From Acidobacteriota bacterium (GTDB lineage Bacteria > Acidobacteriota > Terriglobia > Acidiferrales > UBA7541): a stretch of DNA of 64,000 nt. The DNA lies in contig JABDEK010000002.1 of assembly GCA_013287135.1 (NCBI GenBank), positions 1 through 64,000 of the forward strand. Direction: 5' to 3'. The translations under genes and the position numbers were made by a program. Positions within the stretch are counted from its first letter, which is position 1; every line of letters starts with the position of its first letter. Under the pieces are notes generated by a model. It was not told the DNA's origin and made no database searches. It saw only the letters and a program-made list of their open reading frames with translations. This document shows positions 1 to 8,096 of the stretch, piece after piece.

Positions 1-192
1 AACGTGACATTAGCTCAAATCCAGCCGGGCCAGACGATTTCGGCGCAAGGAGCTCCATCAGAATTGGATTCGGGAGGGTGGAAGCCTGCGCGGCTCCGCG
101 TTTTTAATCAGCAGGGAGAATTGATGGCGATTGCCGAGCCAGTGGTGCCACGCACGTACCAGCCAGTGGTAGTTCTCGAAGCAATTTCTTAG
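1..192 (+). CDS. truB: tRNA pseudouridine synthase B, C-terminal end (partial)
   Basis: Only the last 63 codons are present; the frame is open through the left edge and stops with TAG. The visible end, with a short strand reading VFNQQGELMAIAEPV followed by YQPVVVLEA, resembles the small PUA-like C-terminal domain that closes TruB, the enzyme that makes pseudouridine 55 in the T-loop of tRNA. The catalytic domain lies outside the window, so the call rests on this tail alone. Another PUA-domain protein is possible. It converges on the secretin gene, with about 50 bases between the two stops. Confidence 0.5.
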   Translation, partial: NVTLAQIQPGQTISAQGAPSELDSGGWKPARLRVFNQQGELMAIAEPVVPRTYQPVVVLEAIS

Positions 193-244: not shown

Positions 245-3200
245 CTATTGCGGCTGTTCAGGCGGTTGAGATGGTTCGGGCTGCGGCTGCTCGGGCTCCG
301 GTTGAGGCTGTGGTTGCGGCGGTGGCTGAGGCTGTAGCTGAGGCCGCGGCTGCGGAGGTTGAGGCTGGGGCTGAAACGCGGGCGGAAGCTGGCGTTCCTC
401 TCGTGTTGGACCTTGCGAGCCTGGACCTTCCGGAGCGCCGCGCCCTGCATAGATAACATGATCTTGCCGCGGAGAAAGCGCAACCATTCGCGGGGTGACG
501 AGTATCAACACTTGGGTGTCCTGGTTCTGAACGTCTTCGGTAGCGCCTAACAATCCCGCGCCGGCAACTTCTCCCAAATACGGCAGGCCATTCAGACTCT
601 TCTGATACTGCGGAGAACGAAATCCCGCCAATGCCGCGGTTTCATTCGTTTTCACGCGAACGGTCTGATGCACTTCTTCATTTGAAACTACAGGTATGTT
701 GTTCAGAATCGTTCCGGTGAGACTGGTGATGTCGAATTCGAGCTGCAAGGTAACCTCATCGTTCTGATGAATGCGCGGGGTTGCTTTCACCTTAACGCCG
801 AGGTCGATATATTCGGCATTCGGAAATTGCGTGCCGGGCGTGGTGGTACCGAGACCGCCACTGGCAAATGCCGAAGAATTAAGGATCACCGATACGGTAT
901 TGGAGCCCTCATTGGCGACTGCCAGATCCGGCTGTCCTGAAGTTGAAAACACATTGGTGACCGATGAAACTGGATTTGTTTGAACGGGGAATTCGAAGAG
1001 CGGAGCAAACGTTCCATCACCAAGACCCAGGAGCAAAGCCACAGAGTTGTCAGACTGCGCGGTGACCGCCAAATCCGGAAAGCCGTCAACATTGTAATCC
1101 GCAATAGCGATCGACGTGGGGCCGTTTCCCGCCGGGAAATTCGTCGTGGTGCCGAAGGTGCCATCGCCGTTGCCCAGTAAAATTGAGACGGAGTCTCCCG
1201 AGTTGGTGGAAGTCGCGGCGCCATTATTTGCAACCGCGAGATCCAGGATGTTGTCGCCGTTAAAGTCGGCGGACGCCACATAGACCGGAGCTTGGCCGGT
1301 AGCAAAGCTAACCGGCTTACCGAAGGTGCCGTCGCCATTTCCCAGATAAATCCATACTGTATTGTCGTTCTGATTGGTGACGGCTAGATCTAACTTGCCG
1401 TCATTATTGAAATCCGCGACCGTGAGCCCGGTAGGCGCATTGCCCGTCGGATAGTTTACGGCGGGCATGAAGGTGCCGTCGCCATTGCCCAGGAAGACGG
1501 AGATCGTATTGTCTTTCTGATTCGCGACGATCAAGTCAGTTTGTCCACCAGCGACTAGTGTAGCCGGAACGACGAAGGTGGGACGGTTTCCGGTCTTAAT
1601 GGGCGACCCGGAAGCTGCGGTGAAAGTACCGTCGCCATTGCCGAGCAGAATGGTGAGCGAATTTCCTAATTGGTTCGCCACCGCTAGATCGATATTCGTG
1701 TTGTTCTTCGCGTCAAACGTGCCGGTCGCGATAGAAACTGGCCCTGCCCCAGTGGTAGGCGCCGGCGTGAGCGGATTCTGAAAGGTGCCATCGCCATTGC
1801 CTAAAAGAATTGACAGAGTGTTGTCTGTTGAGTTGGCCACGATGAGATCTTGAAAATTATCCGCGTTCACATCTACCGAGCTCACGAAAGAAGGCCCGTT
1901 ACCCGTAGGATAATTTGTTTCCGGCAAATTGCCGAAGCTCAGCCCAGGAATGCTGACGCCGGCCGGGGTAGTAGTTCCGCTTCCCAGGCTGTTGGAATAT
2001 TGAGCGAGCGAAACTGGAAAACGTTCACCCACGAAAAATGTGGCAGGCTGATTATCTTCAGCGCGCAGCAAAATACGGCGGCCATGACGGACCAGTGAAA
2101 GCATGTCTGAGAAACTCGCTGCAGCGCCGGGCAGGGTGTACAGAAACGTAGATGCTCCTCCACCGAACGCGAGCAGCGGAGGAATCAGCGAACCAACATT
2201 TACCTGACCTGATCCCAGTAATCCGGCTAGTTGAGTTGGATTGAGTCCACCGAGTGCGGAACTTCCGAAGATTTGAGTGAGCACGGAAATTAATCCAGGA
2301 AGGCCGGACTCCGCTTCCGCGACGGCATTGGAAGGGATTGTATAGAGTTTTGCGCTGTTTGGCGGAGTGATACCGAGCTTGCGCTCGGCATCGCGATCCA
2401 TCTCCAGTATCTCAATTTCCAGAACGAGTTCGCCAACCGGATGATCGAGGTCCTCGATCACTCCGCTAGCCAGCGCAATGGCTTGCGGGGAGGCGCGCAT
2501 GGTGAGCGTTCGGCTGTGAGTGTCAAGCTGGCTGCGACTGACACCTGCGATATCGCGGACCAGATGAGACATCTCGGTCATCTGTTCGTTAGTTTCGGTT
2601 CCAGAAAAGAGAACGGTGCGCACAATTGAAATATCGTAGTCTTTGCGTTTTTGTGGGGTGTCGTCGCCTACGAAAAAGAGGTTCTTAGTCAAAGGCCGCC
2701 AGAAAGTGTGAGTTTCTTCGCCCAGCAGCCGCATCACGGTAGCAAAGTCAAGGTCATCTGCGTCCAGACGAACCTGGCGCGATCGTAAGTCCACGTCGAA
2801 TGCTACTTCCACGCCGAACCGCCGCGCGATTTCTTCATATGCAGATTGTGTATTGCCGCGCAGCTTGAAGTTTTGTTTGCCAGGCAAATGTGCCAGGTGC
2901 ATTTCGTGTTGAAGTTCCGGGGCGGCCACAAGTTCTTTTTCGTGCCTCGGATCCAGGGCGGATAGTTCGATCAGCCGTTCGCGTATAACTTTATTGGAGG
3001 GATCAAGTTCGCGGGCTTCGCGCAAAATTCGCAAGGCTGCCGGAATTTCGCCGGATATGGCGTGGCGCTCGGCGAGATCGGCTTTCATCTGAACAACATG
3101 ACTCTTGGCTATTTCCCGTTGAGCAAAGTAATCGGTATCGTGAGGCGCCCAGTTCACCGCATCGACATAGGCTTGGTAGGCCGCTTGCCAATCGCCACTC

Positions 3201-3508
3201 TGTTCCGCGCGGAGACCTTGTTTCTCGGCTTGCTTTGCTTTCTTTAGATCGGCTTTTATGGTCGGCGATTTCGAAGAGGTCGTAGAGTCAGGCGATCCCG
3301 GCGCAGCTTGCTTGGCATCCGTGGCGGAAGAGTTGGCGGGCTGAGGCTGTTTCTCTTGCGGCTGTGTGGCAGTAGCCGACTGAGATTGGGTCGCGGCCGG
3401 CGATCGCGGATTCGCCGCCAGCCTACCGAACAGAGAAATTGTCAGGATCCAGACCAACGCGATGGCTAGGTTAAACAGCCTCGGTCGGCGTGGAAGCGGC
3501 ATAAGCAT
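245..3508 (-). CDS. Secretin-family protein with FG-GAP repeats inserted in the secretin domain
   Basis: A 1087-residue exported protein related to GspD/PilQ secretins, which form outer-membrane rings for type II secretion or type IV pili. Order: membrane/signal segment (about 12-30), low-complexity linker (40-80), TPR-like helices (85-190), an STN/secretin N-domain-like region (205-285), a short N1-like domain (290-355) and the start of the secretin domain (LVLEIEILEMDR, 361-372). Residues about 530-878 are FG-GAP/VCBS-type repeats with six GDGTF motifs and a degenerate seventh unit. The secretin domain then resumes (VKVKATPRIH; VRVKTNETAALAGF; VLILVTPRMV) to about 1010. The tail 1041-1087 is rich in Pro, Gln and Glu. 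No other secretion genes lie beside it. A start at the second Met, two codons later, is equally possible. Confidence 0.85.
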   Translation of the reverse strand: MLMPLPRRPRLFNLAIALVWILTISLFGRLAANPRSPAATQSQSATATQPQEKQPQPANSSATDAKQAAPGSPDSTTSSKSPTIKADLKKAKQAEKQGLRAEQSGDWQAAYQAYVDAVNWAPHDTDYFAQREIAKSHVVQMKADLAERHAISGEIPAALRILREARELDPSNKVIRERLIELSALDPRHEKELVAAPELQHEMHLAHLPGKQNFKLRGNTQSAYEEIARRFGVEVAFDVDLRSRQVRLDADDLDFATVMRLLGEETHTFWRPLTKNLFFVGDDTPQKRKDYDISIVRTVLFSGTETNEQMTEMSHLVRDIAGVSRSQLDTHSRTLTMRASPQAIALASGVIEDLDHPVGELVLEIEILEMDRDAERKLGITPPNSAKLYTIPSNAVAEAESGLPGLISVLTQIFGSSALGGLNPTQLAGLLGSGQVNVGSLIPPLLAFGGGASTFLYTLPGAAASFSDMLSLVRHGRRILLRAEDNQPATFFVGERFPVSLAQYSNSLGSGTTTPAGVSIPGLSFGNLPETNYPTGNGPSFVSSVDVNADNFQDLIVANSTDNTLSILLGNGDGTFQNPLTPAPTTGAGPVSIATGTFDAKNNTNIDLAVANQLGNSLTILLGNGDGTFTAASGSPIKTGNRPTFVVPATLVAGGQTDLIVANQKDNTISVFLGNGDGTFMPAVNYPTGNAPTGLTVADFNNDGKLDLAVTNQNDNTVWIYLGNGDGTFGKPVSFATGQAPVYVASADFNGDNILDLAVANNGAATSTNSGDSVSILLGNGDGTFGTTTNFPAGNGPTSIAIADYNVDGFPDLAVTAQSDNSVALLLGLGDGTFAPLFEFPVQTNPVSSVTNVFSTSGQPDLAVANEGSNTVSVILNSSAFASGGLGTTTPGTQFPNAEYIDLGVKVKATPRIHQNDEVTLQLEFDITSLTGTILNNIPVVSNEEVHQTVRVKTNETAALAGFRSPQYQKSLNGLPYLGEVAGAGLLGATEDVQNQDTQVLILVTPRMVALSPRQDHVIYAGRGAPEGPGSQGPTREERQLPPAFQPQPQPPQPRPQLQPQPPPQPQPQPEPEQPQPEPSQPPEQPQ
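875..1921 (-). repeat. FG-GAP/VCBS-type coding repeats inside the secretin gene
   Basis: About seven units of roughly 50 codons. Each has a calcium-site-like acidic loop (for example DFNNDGKLD or DFNGDNILD), then LAVAN or a variant, and six end in GDGTF; the last unit keeps only DLAVAN and NTVSVIL. In beta-propeller proteins such loops bind calcium and the units form blades, so seven units could make one complete propeller. The repetition visible in the DNA is explained by the protein. Confidence 0.85.
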
Positions 3509-3645: not shown

Positions 3646-3684
3646 GGGAATGCTAGTTGAAACAAGTTTACAACTGGGATTTTG

Positions 3685-4947
3685 ATGCTATCTGCGCTTC
3701 TTGTGGCACTTCGTGAAGGCGTTGAAGCCGCGCTTGTCGTTGGTATCGTCCTCGTTTACCTAAATCGTACTGGACGCCGCGCACTGACGTCGTACGTCTG
3801 GGGCGCGGTGATTCTCGCCTCGGCTGCCAGTTTTGCTGCTGCATTGTTGCTACAGCGCTGGCATATCAGCGAAGACGGTTTTGAAGGTTTGTTGATGCTG
3901 GCCGCCGCTGTTCTGGTGGTCACCATGATTGTGTGGATGAATCGTGTGGCGCGCCATTTGAAGAAAGAGATCGAGCAGCGCGTGGAAAGCTATGCGCAAA
4001 AATCCACAAGGGCCGCCGGTTGGGGCATCGGATTCTTTGTATTTCTAATGGTGTTGCGTGAAGGAGCTGAACTGGTTTTAATCCTGCGCGCCGTGGAGCT
4101 ATCGAGCGTGGGTGTGCAAGTATGGATTGGAACCGGACTGGGAATTGCGATAGCGATTGCCGTTGGTCTCTTCTTTTTTCAAGGCACGTTGCGGATTCCT
4201 CTTCATCGATTTTTCGCAGCCACCAGCGCAATTTTAATGGTGGTGGCATTTCAGCTTTTGCTTACCGGCGTGCACGAATTAAGCGAAGCTATGTGGATTC
4301 CGTCGAGCAAGACAGAAATGGCGACGATCGGACCGATTGTGCGCAATGAGGTTTTCTTTTTCGTGGTGATACTCGGTGTGGCGGCGCTGGTGGTATTGCG
4401 CGAGTGGTTCAGCGCGAAGAAGCCTGCACCCTCCGAACCAGCCAACCCGGCTGAGCGGCGGATGCGGGAATGGGAATTTCGCCGGCAGCGGCGTTGGAGT
4501 TTCGCTGCGGCTGTATTGTGCGTGGCGGTTGTTTTATCGTTTGCCGCAGAGTATGTGTACGCGCGTTCGGCGGCTGCGCCTTCCCCAGCGCAGGCTCTGG
4601 TGGCACAGAATGGGCAAGTGCGCATCCCGCTTTCTGAACTTAACGATTCGAGTTTGCATTTTTATACGGCTGATGTGAACGGGAACGTCATACGGTTTAT
4701 GGTGATTCACAAACAGAATGGCGATTATGCCACGGCGCTGGATGCTTGCCAGATTTGCGGCAGGGCAGGGTATCGCCAGGAAGGCCAGAACGTGATCTGC
4801 CGGAATTGCGCCGCGGCGATTTATATTCCCTCCATTGGCGAATCAGGCGGTTGCAATCCAATCGCGGTCACATCTCGAGTTCAAGCTGGAGAAGTGGTTG
4901 TGGATCTATCGGCGCTAGGCGATTCCGCCTCCAGGATTCATTCCTAA
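3685..4947 (+). CDS. FTR1-family iron permease fused to a DUF2318 (Fe-S-membrane) domain
   Basis: High-affinity iron transporter of the inner membrane. The FTR1 part has about seven membrane helices and both REXXE iron-translocation motifs: REGVE at 10-14 in the first helix and REGAE at 125-129. After a further helix (about 272-295) a soluble domain carries CQIC (355-358) and CRNC (372-375), the cysteine pairs of DUF2318, a domain often fused or linked to FTR1 permeases. A TTG codon directly before the ATG is an alternative start. Two ABC permeases and an ATPase follow within three bases or by overlap, as in the Campylobacter p19/FTR1 and E. coli fet-type iron systems. The periplasmic iron protein P19 is not in this operon. 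Confidence 0.9.
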   Translation: MLSALLVALREGVEAALVVGIVLVYLNRTGRRALTSYVWGAVILASAASFAAALLLQRWHISEDGFEGLLMLAAAVLVVTMIVWMNRVARHLKKEIEQRVESYAQKSTRAAGWGIGFFVFLMVLREGAELVLILRAVELSSVGVQVWIGTGLGIAIAIAVGLFFFQGTLRIPLHRFFAATSAILMVVAFQLLLTGVHELSEAMWIPSSKTEMATIGPIVRNEVFFFVVILGVAALVVLREWFSAKKPAPSEPANPAERRMREWEFRRQRRWSFAAAVLCVAVVLSFAAEYVYARSAAAPSPAQALVAQNGQVRIPLSELNDSSLHFYTADVNGNVIRFMVIHKQNGDYATALDACQICGRAGYRQEGQNVICRNCAAAIYIPSIGESGGCNPIAVTSRVQAGEVVVDLSALGDSASRIHS

Positions 4948-4950
4948 CAA

Positions 4951-6273
4951 ATGTTCGGCCGCCTGGTAAAAGAATCCTTCGTCCGTAATCCGCGCCGGAA
5001 ATTGCTTACCGCTGCCGCGCTGGTTGTGGGCATGGCGGTGGCGACTTCAACGTTAACCATTGCGCTAGAAGTGGGCGACAGGCTAGCCCGAGAGTTTCGC
5101 AGTCTTGGCGCGAATTTGCTCGTCACCCCTCAGTCGGACACGCTTCCAGTAGAAATTGGCGGCGTGGATTATCGTCCGGTGAATGAAGGCGCGTATTTGA
5201 GCGAAGCTGATCTCGGAAAGATGAAAACGATATTCTGGCGGCACAACGTATTGGGTTTTACTCCATTTCTGGATGTTCCGATCGCGATCCAACAATCTGA
5301 AAACGCTGCACCCACGCGCACGATGCTGATCGGCACATGGAATGCAAAAGAAGTGCCGGTGCCGGATGGAACAACGTTTAAGACTGGGGTGAGCGTAACG
5401 CATCCCTGGTGGAAAATTCGTGGCCGCTGGTTTCGTGATGGCGCGAACGAATGCGTAATCGGAGCGGCGCTGGCGAAGACGATGCCCGGAATAGTTCCGG
5501 GAAAAGTTATTTACGTTAGCGATGAAACGGGTGTGAATTCCGTACAGGACCACTCGACCCTTGCGAAGGGAACTCCTCTGGAAGTGGTTGGCATCGTTTC
5601 CACGGACGACGCGGAAGATAAAGCGGTTCTCGCGCCACTGGAAATTGCTCAAAACATATCCGGTCATCCCGGAAAGTTTCGTCAGCTATTCGTTAGCGCC
5701 TTGACAAAACCCGCAGATGCGTTCTCTGAACGCGATCCGTTGAAAATGACGCCGACGGAATACGATCGCTGGTTTTGCTCACCCTATATTTCTTCGATTG
5801 CTTTTCAAATCAAAACCGTATTGCCCGGCACAGAGGTGCGCACGATTCGTCGCGTGGCTGACACAGAAGGAAACATTCTGTCGCGTGTGAGTACGTTGCT
5901 GTGGATTGTCACGCTCACGGCTCTGATAGCTGCGGCTTTGGCGGTAGCGGCAACGTCAGCCACCACCGTGCTCGAACGGCGCGGGGAAGTCGGTGTGATG
6001 AAGGCTCTGGGAGCAACCAATACTCTGGTCGCAGGAATATTTTTGGCCGAACAACTCCTTCTGGCCATTGCTGGAGCTTCCATGGGCTTTGTTCTAGGCG
6101 CGCTGTTGGCCAGGAGTCTCGGGTCCAGCATTTTTGGCACGCCCGCGTCGCCGCGCCTGATTTTATTTCCAGTGGTTCTTGGCCTTGCTGCGATTGTGGC
6201 GTTTACCGGAAGCTTGATTCCTCTACGACGCGCAGCGCACTTCAATCCCGCACCGATTCTGCGGGGCGAATAA
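4951..6273 (+). CDS. FtsX/MacB-type ABC permease, first of the iron-uptake pair
   Basis: A 440-residue inner-membrane permease. It has an N-terminal helix (about 20-42), a large periplasmic domain (about 45-310) and three C-terminal helices (about 315-435) with the conserved coupling region GEVGVMKALGAT, ending in LRRAAHFNPAPILRGE as in FtsX-like permeases. It begins three bases after the FTR1 stop and its stop overlaps the next start by one base (TAATG), so it should be translated in series with its neighbours. Known FTR1-linked ABC systems include two such permeases. The molecule they move is not settled, so I infer only a part in iron uptake or reduction. Confidence 0.85.
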   Translation: MFGRLVKESFVRNPRRKLLTAAALVVGMAVATSTLTIALEVGDRLAREFRSLGANLLVTPQSDTLPVEIGGVDYRPVNEGAYLSEADLGKMKTIFWRHNVLGFTPFLDVPIAIQQSENAAPTRTMLIGTWNAKEVPVPDGTTFKTGVSVTHPWWKIRGRWFRDGANECVIGAALAKTMPGIVPGKVIYVSDETGVNSVQDHSTLAKGTPLEVVGIVSTDDAEDKAVLAPLEIAQNISGHPGKFRQLFVSALTKPADAFSERDPLKMTPTEYDRWFCSPYISSIAFQIKTVLPGTEVRTIRRVADTEGNILSRVSTLLWIVTLTALIAAALAVAATSATTVLERRGEVGVMKALGATNTLVAGIFLAEQLLLAIAGASMGFVLGALLARSLGSSIFGTPASPRLILFPVVLGLAAIVAFTGSLIPLRRAAHFNPAPILRGE

Positions 6274-7406
6274 TGTTTTGGCGCCTGCTTTGGAAACTTT
6301 TGCGCGGAAGCGGTGGCAGATTAGCTGTGGCGATTCTCGCGCTAGTTAGCTGCGCAATGGTTGTCTCCGCTCTGTTGAATCTGGAATTTGACATCGAGCG
6401 CAAACTCACACAGGAATTCCGTACCTTGGGAGCGAACTTATTGATTTCGCCCCGGAACGCGCAAATCACCGGCAGCAGCCCAGCCGAAGTGATGATCGAG
6501 AGCGAAGTATCGGCCGCGATTCAAAGTGTAAAAGATCCTAATGTCATGGCGGCAGCGCCCTTCCTCTACGTTGTCGGAAGCGCCCAGAACACAGCGGTGG
6601 TTATCGCAGGGACCCATCTCGAAGAATTGCCGAAACTTGAGCCGGCTTGGAGGATAGAGGGCGAGTGGAAATCGTCCCAGGCCCAGCAAACCGCGTGCTT
6701 GGTGGGACGTAACGTCGCGCAGCAGCTAAAGCTTGCTGTTGGCAGCTCAGTCAGTCTGACCTACTTGAAAAAAAATGCGCAGCTTAAGGTGGCCGGAATC
6801 ATAGATGCGGGCGGAGCGGAAGATAACCAAGTTTTCCTAGAGCTGGCGGAAGCGCAAGACCTCGCAGGCCTTCCCGGACAAATCAGCTTCGCGCAATTGA
6901 GCGTGAGCGGAACGACAACGGGCATTTCGCATTATGCCGCGCGGCTCGCCGCTGCATTGCCGGCTTATGAAGTAAAACCAATTCGCCAAATCACAGAAGC
7001 GGAGGGCGACCTGCTAAGCCGCATCCGCTTGCTCATCGTTTCCATGATTGTGCTGATCTCCGCGTTGACGGCTCTTTGCGTTTTAGGAACGATGGCGGCG
7101 CTAGCTATGGAACGCCGGCAGGACGTGGGCCTGATGAAGGCGCTGGGTGGGTCGATCGGACGCATCGTTACATTATTCATGGCTGAAGTGGGAGTGCTGG
7201 GCGCGGCGGGTGGATTTATCGGTGCGATCTTAGGCTTAGAGCTTTCACGCTGGATGGGCCAGCGCGTTTTTGGCCAGGCAATTTCGTCGCGTTGGGAAAT
7301 CTTTCCATGGACGATCATTCTTACGGTGGCCATCGCACTTGCGGGAGCGCTTCCATTGCGGCTGCTGGGCAAAGTAAAACCGGCCATAATTTTTCGGGAG
7401 CAATGA
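6273..7406 (+). CDS. FtsX/MacB-type ABC permease, second of the iron-uptake pair
   Basis: A 377-residue paralogue of the preceding permease: an N-terminal helix, a periplasmic domain that opens with FRTLGANLLISPRNA (the first permease has FRSLGANLLVTPQSD), and three C-terminal helices with QDVGLMKALGGS. I chose the ATG at 6273 because it overlaps the upstream stop as TAATG and starts directly with the membrane segment; the longer open frame to the left lies inside the previous gene. The gene ends one base before the GTG start of the ATPase. The two permeases very likely form a heterodimer, inferred from pairing and similarity. Confidence 0.85.
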   Translation: MFWRLLWKLLRGSGGRLAVAILALVSCAMVVSALLNLEFDIERKLTQEFRTLGANLLISPRNAQITGSSPAEVMIESEVSAAIQSVKDPNVMAAAPFLYVVGSAQNTAVVIAGTHLEELPKLEPAWRIEGEWKSSQAQQTACLVGRNVAQQLKLAVGSSVSLTYLKKNAQLKVAGIIDAGGAEDNQVFLELAEAQDLAGLPGQISFAQLSVSGTTTGISHYAARLAAALPAYEVKPIRQITEAEGDLLSRIRLLIVSMIVLISALTALCVLGTMAALAMERRQDVGLMKALGGSIGRIVTLFMAEVGVLGAAGGFIGAILGLELSRWMGQRVFGQAISSRWEIFPWTIILTVAIALAGALPLRLLGKVKPAIIFREQ

Positions 7407-8096
7407 GTGGCGACGCTCGTACGAGTGGATGACCTGCGCAAAGAATTCGGAAAGGTGCGCGCGCTTGCGGGCGTGTCGTTCAACGTGGAAGCGGGCGAAT
7501 GGATCGCCATCATGGGACCTTCGGGCTCAGGAAAGACGACACTGATTAATATTTTAGGCGGCCTGGACACGCCCACTTCAGGACAAGCGATTGTGGACGA
7601 AGTAGATGTTGCGCGGCTGGACGAATCCGGACTCACTCGTTTTAGAGCGCAAAAGATTGGATTTATTTTTCAACAATTTCATCTGGTGCCATATCTGACG
7701 GCGGTTGAAAACGTGATGTTAGCTCAATATTTTCATAGCGCCACGGATGAAAAAGAAGCGCAGCTAGCGCTTGAACGTGTGGGCTTGGCCGATCGCATCG
7801 AGCATCTTCCCGGGGCCTTGTCCGGAGGCGAGCAGCAACGCGTGGCCGTCGCGCGTGCGCTGATCAATCATCCGAAACTGATTCTGGCCGACGAACCTAC
7901 GGGAAATCTCGACGAAGCGAATGAAGAGACCGTGATCCAGCTTTTTCGGGAATTGCACAGCGAGGGACACACGATCCTGATGGTGACGCACGATCCTGCC
8001 ATCGGAAATCTTGCGGATCGTCGCATCGAATTCGCGCATGGCCGTTTGGTGAAAGTCACGCCCTCGAATGATGCGTCGCGGAACGCTTACAGATAA
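7407..8096 (+). CDS. ABC transporter ATPase (LolD/MacB class) of the iron-uptake operon
   Basis: A 229-residue nucleotide-binding subunit with every expected motif: Walker A GPSGSGKTT (about 36-44), Q-loop region FIFQQFHLVPYLTA, signature LSGGEQQRVAVARAL (about 137-151), Walker B LILADEPTGNLDE and the H-loop VTHDP. It belongs to the class that drives FtsX-like permeases, matching the two permeases before it. The start is GTG, directly after the upstream TGA. It closes the four-gene run. The neighbouring peptidase gene is convergent. Confidence 0.92.
   Translation: MATLVRVDDLRKEFGKVRALAGVSFNVEAGEWIAIMGPSGSGKTTLINILGGLDTPTSGQAIVDEVDVARLDESGLTRFRAQKIGFIFQQFHLVPYLTAVENVMLAQYFHSATDEKEAQLALERVGLADRIEHLPGALSGGEQQRVAVARALINHPKLILADEPTGNLDEANEETVIQLFRELHSEGHTILMVTHDPAIGNLADRRIEFAHGRLVKVTPSNDASRNAYR

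Follow-up and report, generated by a model that had tools for sequence, protein, structure and literature searches.

Secretins can open wide and yet not leak because of their central gate (Gate 1), which in the closest described systems is a short hairpin. In XcpD (GspD/XcpD structures 5wln, 5wq7 and 6i1x) it comprises 31 residues, T477 and S480 being named as the gate tip in the accessible part of PMC10550240. In the 414-residue chain of phage pIV (7ofh) it also comprises 31 residues, Gly267-Gly297, with no room for a propeller, and the modelled movement about the bounding glycines 267 and 297 is upwards and outwards (accessible part of PMC8563730). Here we describe a secretin gene of an Acidobacteriota bacterium, a member of a group of soil bacteria, found in the window (the whole stretch of DNA analysed, 64,000 nucleotides, positions 1 to 64,000 of contig JABDEK010000002.1), whose protein, the window protein, has a predicted seven-bladed FG-GAP propeller inside the central gate. 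A parallel is the cap (top) gate of Vibrio-type GspD, likewise an extra module that helps to close the secretin, but the cap gate consists of beta-hairpins at the apical extremity (accessible parts of PMC10550240 and PMC6532946), whereas the module here lies within the central gate itself. No protein combining a secretin with a propeller was found among the literature matches listed, a collection that lacks most subscription-journal papers as well as preprints.

Domain layout and insertion site

The secretin domain of the window protein is split by an insert of about 400 residues with seven FG-GAP units. GDGTF motifs stand at residues 572, 625, 676, 725, 781 and 830, a seventh unit at about residue 850 lacks the motif, and the Pfam profile FG-GAP_3 matches with 150.9 bits (E 1.4e-44; cut-off 26.9). 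An AlphaFold2 monomer model arranges the seven units as one seven-bladed propeller, with a predicted local distance difference test score (pLDDT) mostly >90, and structure comparison assigns it the fold of integrin alpha heads. Although the predicted fold is the same, identity to the integrin-type propeller is 16%, and unlike the integrin heads the propeller is joined by both of its ends to the pore subunit that contains it and has no known integrin partner. Loops of the DxNxDG type, which we take to be the calcium-binding motif of FG-GAP repeats, number four in the window protein and 1-7 in 31 insert-bearing rows of alignment A1, as counted in the sequences with a loose motif.

The insert is bounded by G494 and G904, and glycine occupies both positions in all 34 rows of A1. 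In the insert-less orthologue L072, G445 and G485 align to the first and second pivots of XcpQ/XcpD (5wln). Aligned to 5wln_G, the glycine-to-glycine stretch of L072 is 31 residues, equal to XcpD gate residues 466-496, and L072 has T and S where XcpD has the gate-tip residues T477 and S480. Because the glycines that flank the insert align with the Gate 1 pivots of XcpD and pIV, the insert lies inside the gate loop. Where XcpD and pIV have a short Gate 1 of 31 residues, the window protein has 409 residues between the pivots. Measured from pivot to pivot, 33 insert-bearing rows (32 genomes of the window's family and contig L003) gave 383-605 and 14 rows without the insert 34-48, 13 of the 60 rows having escaped measurement by motif.

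A sequence-only reading of this gene had proposed much of this architecture. It had the secretin domain begin at LVLEIEILEM, which does start at residue 361, and resume with VKVKATPRIH and VLILVTPRMV, which we find at residues 905 and 1000; its interval 875..1921 corresponds to residues 530-878, its six GDGTF motifs were all recovered, and the single propeller it drew from seven units is what AlphaFold2 predicts. Its internal insertion likewise holds, the rival arrangement of a terminal appendage being ruled out by Pfam order and predicted structure. It had further set adhesive or calcium-binding blades on one face of a ring of 12-15, and had not specified which face: the site is now narrowed to the central gate loop, and any assignment to a face is conjecture because in solved secretins the lumen is where this loop projects. 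The ring of 12-15, adhesion and calcium binding are likewise conjecture.

The gate-propeller protein is still a secretin, judged by its profile match, predicted strands and pivots. PF00263 (Secretin) scores 85.4 bits against a cut-off of 27.5, in a match that begins at residue 883, past the repeats, and the same profile is found at E <= 0.001 in 33 of the 34 A1 members. The secretin strand order and the N3 domain are present, and the final strand of the first secretin part leads into the gate in the model. Secretin_N is below its cut-off in the window protein and reaches E <= 0.001 in 8 of the 34 A1 members; fold alignments of L072 cover the N3-like region from L072 residue 244, and, for the N0-like domain, some whole-secretin matches of the L072 model (6w6m, 5tcr) start at L072 residue 164. 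Nearer the N terminus, TPR_14 (E 7e-4) is below its cut-off in the window protein and TPR_2 is found in 13 of 34 A1 members (Pfam). A low-complexity stretch sits between the TPR-like domain and the probable signal peptide, in whose residues 1-33 no lipobox was seen on reading the sequence.

An ordinary secretin of a type II secretion system (T2SS), type IV pilus or type III secretion system is ruled out by the NCBIfam cut-offs. The window protein scores 78.4 against the equivalog cut-off of 351.35 for GspD (TIGR02517), 52.7 against the subfamily cut-off of 284.35 for PilQ (TIGR02515) and 42.9 against the equivalog cut-off of 238.45 for SctC (TIGR02516). AMIN was not matched in the Pfam search, and no T2SS genes were seen beside the gene. 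Proteins of the Amuc_1098 type have a similar module ahead of the secretin domain (window residues 76-182 against profile positions 26-134), but the window protein reaches 29.7 bits with the Amuc_1098 model against a cut-off of 750. RcpA-TadD (8odn) was among the structure matches of the insert-less L072 model; TadD is a lipoprotein studied together with RcpA, according to the accessible part of its description.

Table 1. Coordinates of the gate-propeller secretin gene, its parts and its neighbours in the window
Feature	Position	Strand	Basis and remarks
Gate-propeller secretin gene	245..3508	minus	open frame, Pfam, orthologues; 1087 aa
Probable Sec signal peptide, residues 1-33	3410..3508	minus	read from sequence; model helix 14-24
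TPR-like helical domain, residues 88-185	2954..3247	minus	predicted helices, pLDDT mostly 84-92
N0-like periplasmic domain, residues about 205-300	2609..2896	minus	predicted alpha/beta elements
N3/Secretin_N-like domain, residues about 293-357	2438..2632	minus	Pfam and fold alignment
Secretin domain part 1, residues 359-501	2006..2434	minus	predicted strands 473-484, 489-500
G494, first central-gate pivot glycine	2027..2029	minus	alignment A1; mapping to 5wln via L072
Linker 1, residues 502-529	1922..2005	minus	pLDDT <50 at 502-518
Seven-bladed FG-GAP propeller, residues 530-880	869..1921	minus	
Linker 2, residues 881-897	818..868	minus	pLDDT <50 at 884-897
G904, second central-gate pivot glycine	797..799	minus	alignment A1; mapping to 5wln via L072
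Secretin domain part 2, residues 898-1011	476..817	minus	PF00263 positions 37-168; predicted strands 898-913 to 990-1011
Proline/glutamine-rich tail, residues 1012-1087	248..475	minus	sequence; pLDDT mostly <50
FTR1 iron permease with FtrD-like domain, divergent neighbour	3682..4947	plus	Pfam; adjoins the secretin gene in part of the loci
End of truB-like gene, running toward the secretin gene	1..192	plus	frame; putative identity from synteny (neighbour at L050 is TruB_N)

Occurrence, descent and selection

With the part of the protein before the insert as query, matches were obtained in 93 of the order's 95 genomes; the window's family accounts for 89 of the 95. The gene was read in 40 of these 89, the window's included and mostly better-scoring ones. 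In 38 of the 40 the reading frame runs on from the first secretin part into FG-GAP units, and it does so on contig L003 too. Both pivots were located by motif in 32 of the 38; L059, L064, L067 and L082 could be read through the insert to the second secretin part though the motif missed one pivot, and in L076 and L136 the frame stops before that part. L072 and L073, from a single genus (2 of 2 genomes read), keep the gene and lack the insert. The insert is also absent from L085, L086 and L089, which represent two other families of the order. A further 11 related secretins, from two families elsewhere in the class, lack it as well; because no syntenic neighbour was seen beside any of them, they are not claimed as orthologues.

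That an assembly or annotation artefact fused two genes, a possibility named beforehand by the sequence-only reading, could appeal to the poor assembly of repeats and to the few copies broken in draft genomes (L076, G070), but it is improbable in the extreme: the junction recurs across dozens of assemblies, in open frames and with synonymous divergence between copies, the gene sits at a syntenic locus (TruB, IF-2 and NusA to one side, an FTR1 iron cluster to the other), and the insert is both in frame in 38 of 40 genomes and constrained (see below). A chimeric join was accordingly rejected. The orthologues at L076 and at L005 / G070 contig 42 are broken or carry runs of N within or near the repeats, which is likely assembly trouble.

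A midpoint-rooted tree of the secretin parts was drawn from 55 rows, leaving out L076, L136 and L053 as truncated or broken, and L059 and L082 because the motif missed their second pivot. Two changes of the insert label are needed on it, and the family's two insert-less members are placed among insert-bearing rows with starred support, a pattern consistent with a single gain followed by a single loss. In a second tree, of 30 inserts with 15 free propellers (from 19 candidates) and omitting L074, L077 and L078 for their extra length, the backbone is weak and three changes are required, which leaves a single origin of the insert one possibility among others.

Two variants of the propeller deserve mention. 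L074 (5752-9597) has two He_PIG Ig domains between the FG-GAP units of its gate insert, a domain within a domain (Pfam), which suggests that the region is exposed; L078 has the same arrangement by sequence reading, as L077 presumably does, given its pivot distance of 603. The window's own genome also encodes a free 934-aa protein (L150, 577-3378; G000 contig 20) with 13 FG-GAP stretches and Big_3_5 Ig-like domains. Over six stretches its identity to the propeller is 46-58%, and on this resemblance it is a possible source of the gate insert.

Class-wide, the N-terminal query matched 397 of 399 genomes. Among the matches listed outside the order, the frames were mostly about 600-890 aa, and one 991-aa cohesin-type secretin-like frame had no FG-GAP motifs. 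A junction query of 149 genomes of the phylum, a search that can miss weak relatives, returned among the matches listed no unbroken frame other than the window's that spans the secretin strands and the first blade. The G435 row (39-223) spans the junction but has three internal stops, the G470 row (139-223, 1213-aa frame) begins only around the pivot, and the G165 row (1-160, 1020-aa) stops soon past it. In the plasmid collection 42 records matched, none over 80% of the query, and in the best 10 of the 42 the matches lay within and just beyond the repeats.

As judged from substitution rates, the insert is under purifying selection, and strongly so, the ratio of nonsynonymous to synonymous rates (dN/dS) being 0.05-0.16 in six orthologue pairs. 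The secretin parts gave 0.06-0.16 where computable, the second part being saturated in one pair. In the three pairs formed by the window and its two closest relatives the insert has a higher dN/dS than its flanks, up to about twofold, the window-pair values being rough because synonymous sites are near saturation; in two of the other three pairs the insert is not above the first secretin part. When the protein was divided into eight regions, mean identity to the window protein was highest in the strands at the two pivots (76% and 69%) and lowest in linker 2 (27%, 30 orthologues), with linker 1 at 37%. This ranking of the pivot strands suggests that gate motion still matters. A family that has kept a 350-residue domain in its gate loop, and has apparently once lost it, is a natural experiment on how much of the gate is needed, with orthologues with and without the domain available for comparison. 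It also sets an example from nature for building sensors into large pores.

Proposed working and its alternatives

We propose an outer-membrane secretin in which the tip of Gate 1 is replaced by the propeller. Every ring subunit would bear a single propeller, held by two flexible linkers that start near the gate pivots. Outside the cell, at the mouth of the pore, the propellers would come together as a tethered plug or crown, obstructing the pore instead of the usual hairpins and exposing ligand-binding faces. Passage of cargo, or binding of a ligand or calcium, would move them out of the way, with the pivot glycines as hinges. We give this plug or crown a probability of roughly 0.42; architecture, insertion point, conservation and descent come from sequence and prediction, and the position at the mouth, the obstruction and the binding faces are what we infer from them. 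The bolder version, in which the propeller makes the central gate a ligand- or calcium-responsive valve whose plug is moved, and pore opened, by binding at the surface, has the odds well against it.

Size constrains where the propellers could be. A propeller of 355 residues is about 45 Å across, and by a crude estimate at most two lie side by side in an 80 Å disc; the pivots of VcPilQ are about 80 Å apart (accessible part of PMC7545093). The propellers therefore cannot all fit at gate level and would gather above or below it, and the outside is favoured because Gate 1 moves upwards and outwards in the known or modelled open states and because the insert of a relative contains He_PIG Ig domains. 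Several points tell against the plug or crown. The monomer model, with a predicted template modelling score (pTM) of 0.43, does not fix where the propeller sits with respect to the barrel. A flat ring of 12-15 propellers needs an estimated radius of about 87-108 Å (about 108 Å for 15), whereas by arithmetic the reach of a 17-residue linker is no more than about 58 Å, which makes a flat crown unlikely and calls for a cluster that is compact or staggered. The periplasmic chamber is another possible site, the protein has no known ligand, cargo or partner, and the ring itself is putative.

The same features can be read as surface display, with the secretin mainly an anchor, the propellers adhesin or receptor heads and gating incidental. 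Integrin heads are FG-GAP propellers, the genome holds the free relative with Ig-like domains, and no inner-membrane platform gene was seen among the recurrent neighbours of the secretin gene; yet a display system has no need of the gate position, and the conservation of the pivot strands, which suggests that gate motion matters, leaves us rather doubtful of it. We consider it unlikely that the propellers instead hang in the periplasmic chamber as a filter that selects or holds cargo ahead of release. The propeller does reach the periplasm along with the rest of the chain, and solved chambers are wide (74 Å at N3 in pIV and 60-90 Å in VcPilQ; accessible parts of PMC8563730 and PMC7545093), but Gate 1 moves outward in the known or modelled open states (PMC10550240 and PMC8563730, likewise in part), and 15 packed propellers would have an estimated volume of about 1.1 million cubic Å.

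Finally, the ring might conduct nothing any more and the propeller be a decoration tolerated at a permissive loop. One genus keeps the gene without the propeller, by the tree through loss, and the raised dN/dS of the insert in the window and its two nearest kin points the same way; strongly purifying selection on the insert in all six pairs and its presence in 38 of 40 genomes make such a decoration very unlikely. Against these alternatives, the tethered plug or crown is the reading we prefer.

Genomic surroundings and other secretins

On one side the secretin gene is flanked by a divergent cluster that recurs beside it and in the window occupies 3682-8096: an FTR1-FtrD-like Fe-S fusion, two MacB/FtsX permeases and an ATP-binding cassette ATPase. 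We take this cluster to resemble the ferrous-iron uptake clusters of other bacteria. On the other side lies a convergent truB gene, followed by the IF-2 and NusA genes (Pfam). Neighbours were counted at the 40 loci where the gene could be located (39 of L050-L089, plus L003). The upstream ones include an FTR1 cluster member in 21, FtsX/MacB in 28 and the ATPase in 23, and the downstream ones TruB in 25, IF-2 in 28 and NusA in 19, counts that are lowered by contig ends and the longest-frame rule. No pilus, secretion or inner-membrane platform genes were found among the recurrent neighbours, identification being confined to neighbours named by Pfam, and an operon with pilus genes was dropped as a candidate.

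Elsewhere in the genomes such genes do occur. Each of seven genomes searched encodes two double-domain T2SSF/PilC proteins, with two further matches in G073, and 2-4 secretins over the cut-off (at least three in six of the seven); the window's own genome, 79% complete, has two. With several T2SSF/PilC proteins and secretins per genome, no platform can be assigned to the gate-propeller secretin. Another secretin of the window's genome (L119) is PilQ-like with AMIN. A second kind, combining TPR, secretin and C-terminal cohesin domains, is encoded at L120 (9713-12052; Pfam) and L121 (8036-10477; by sequence), and the L120 gene adjoins one with an N_methyl pilin motif.
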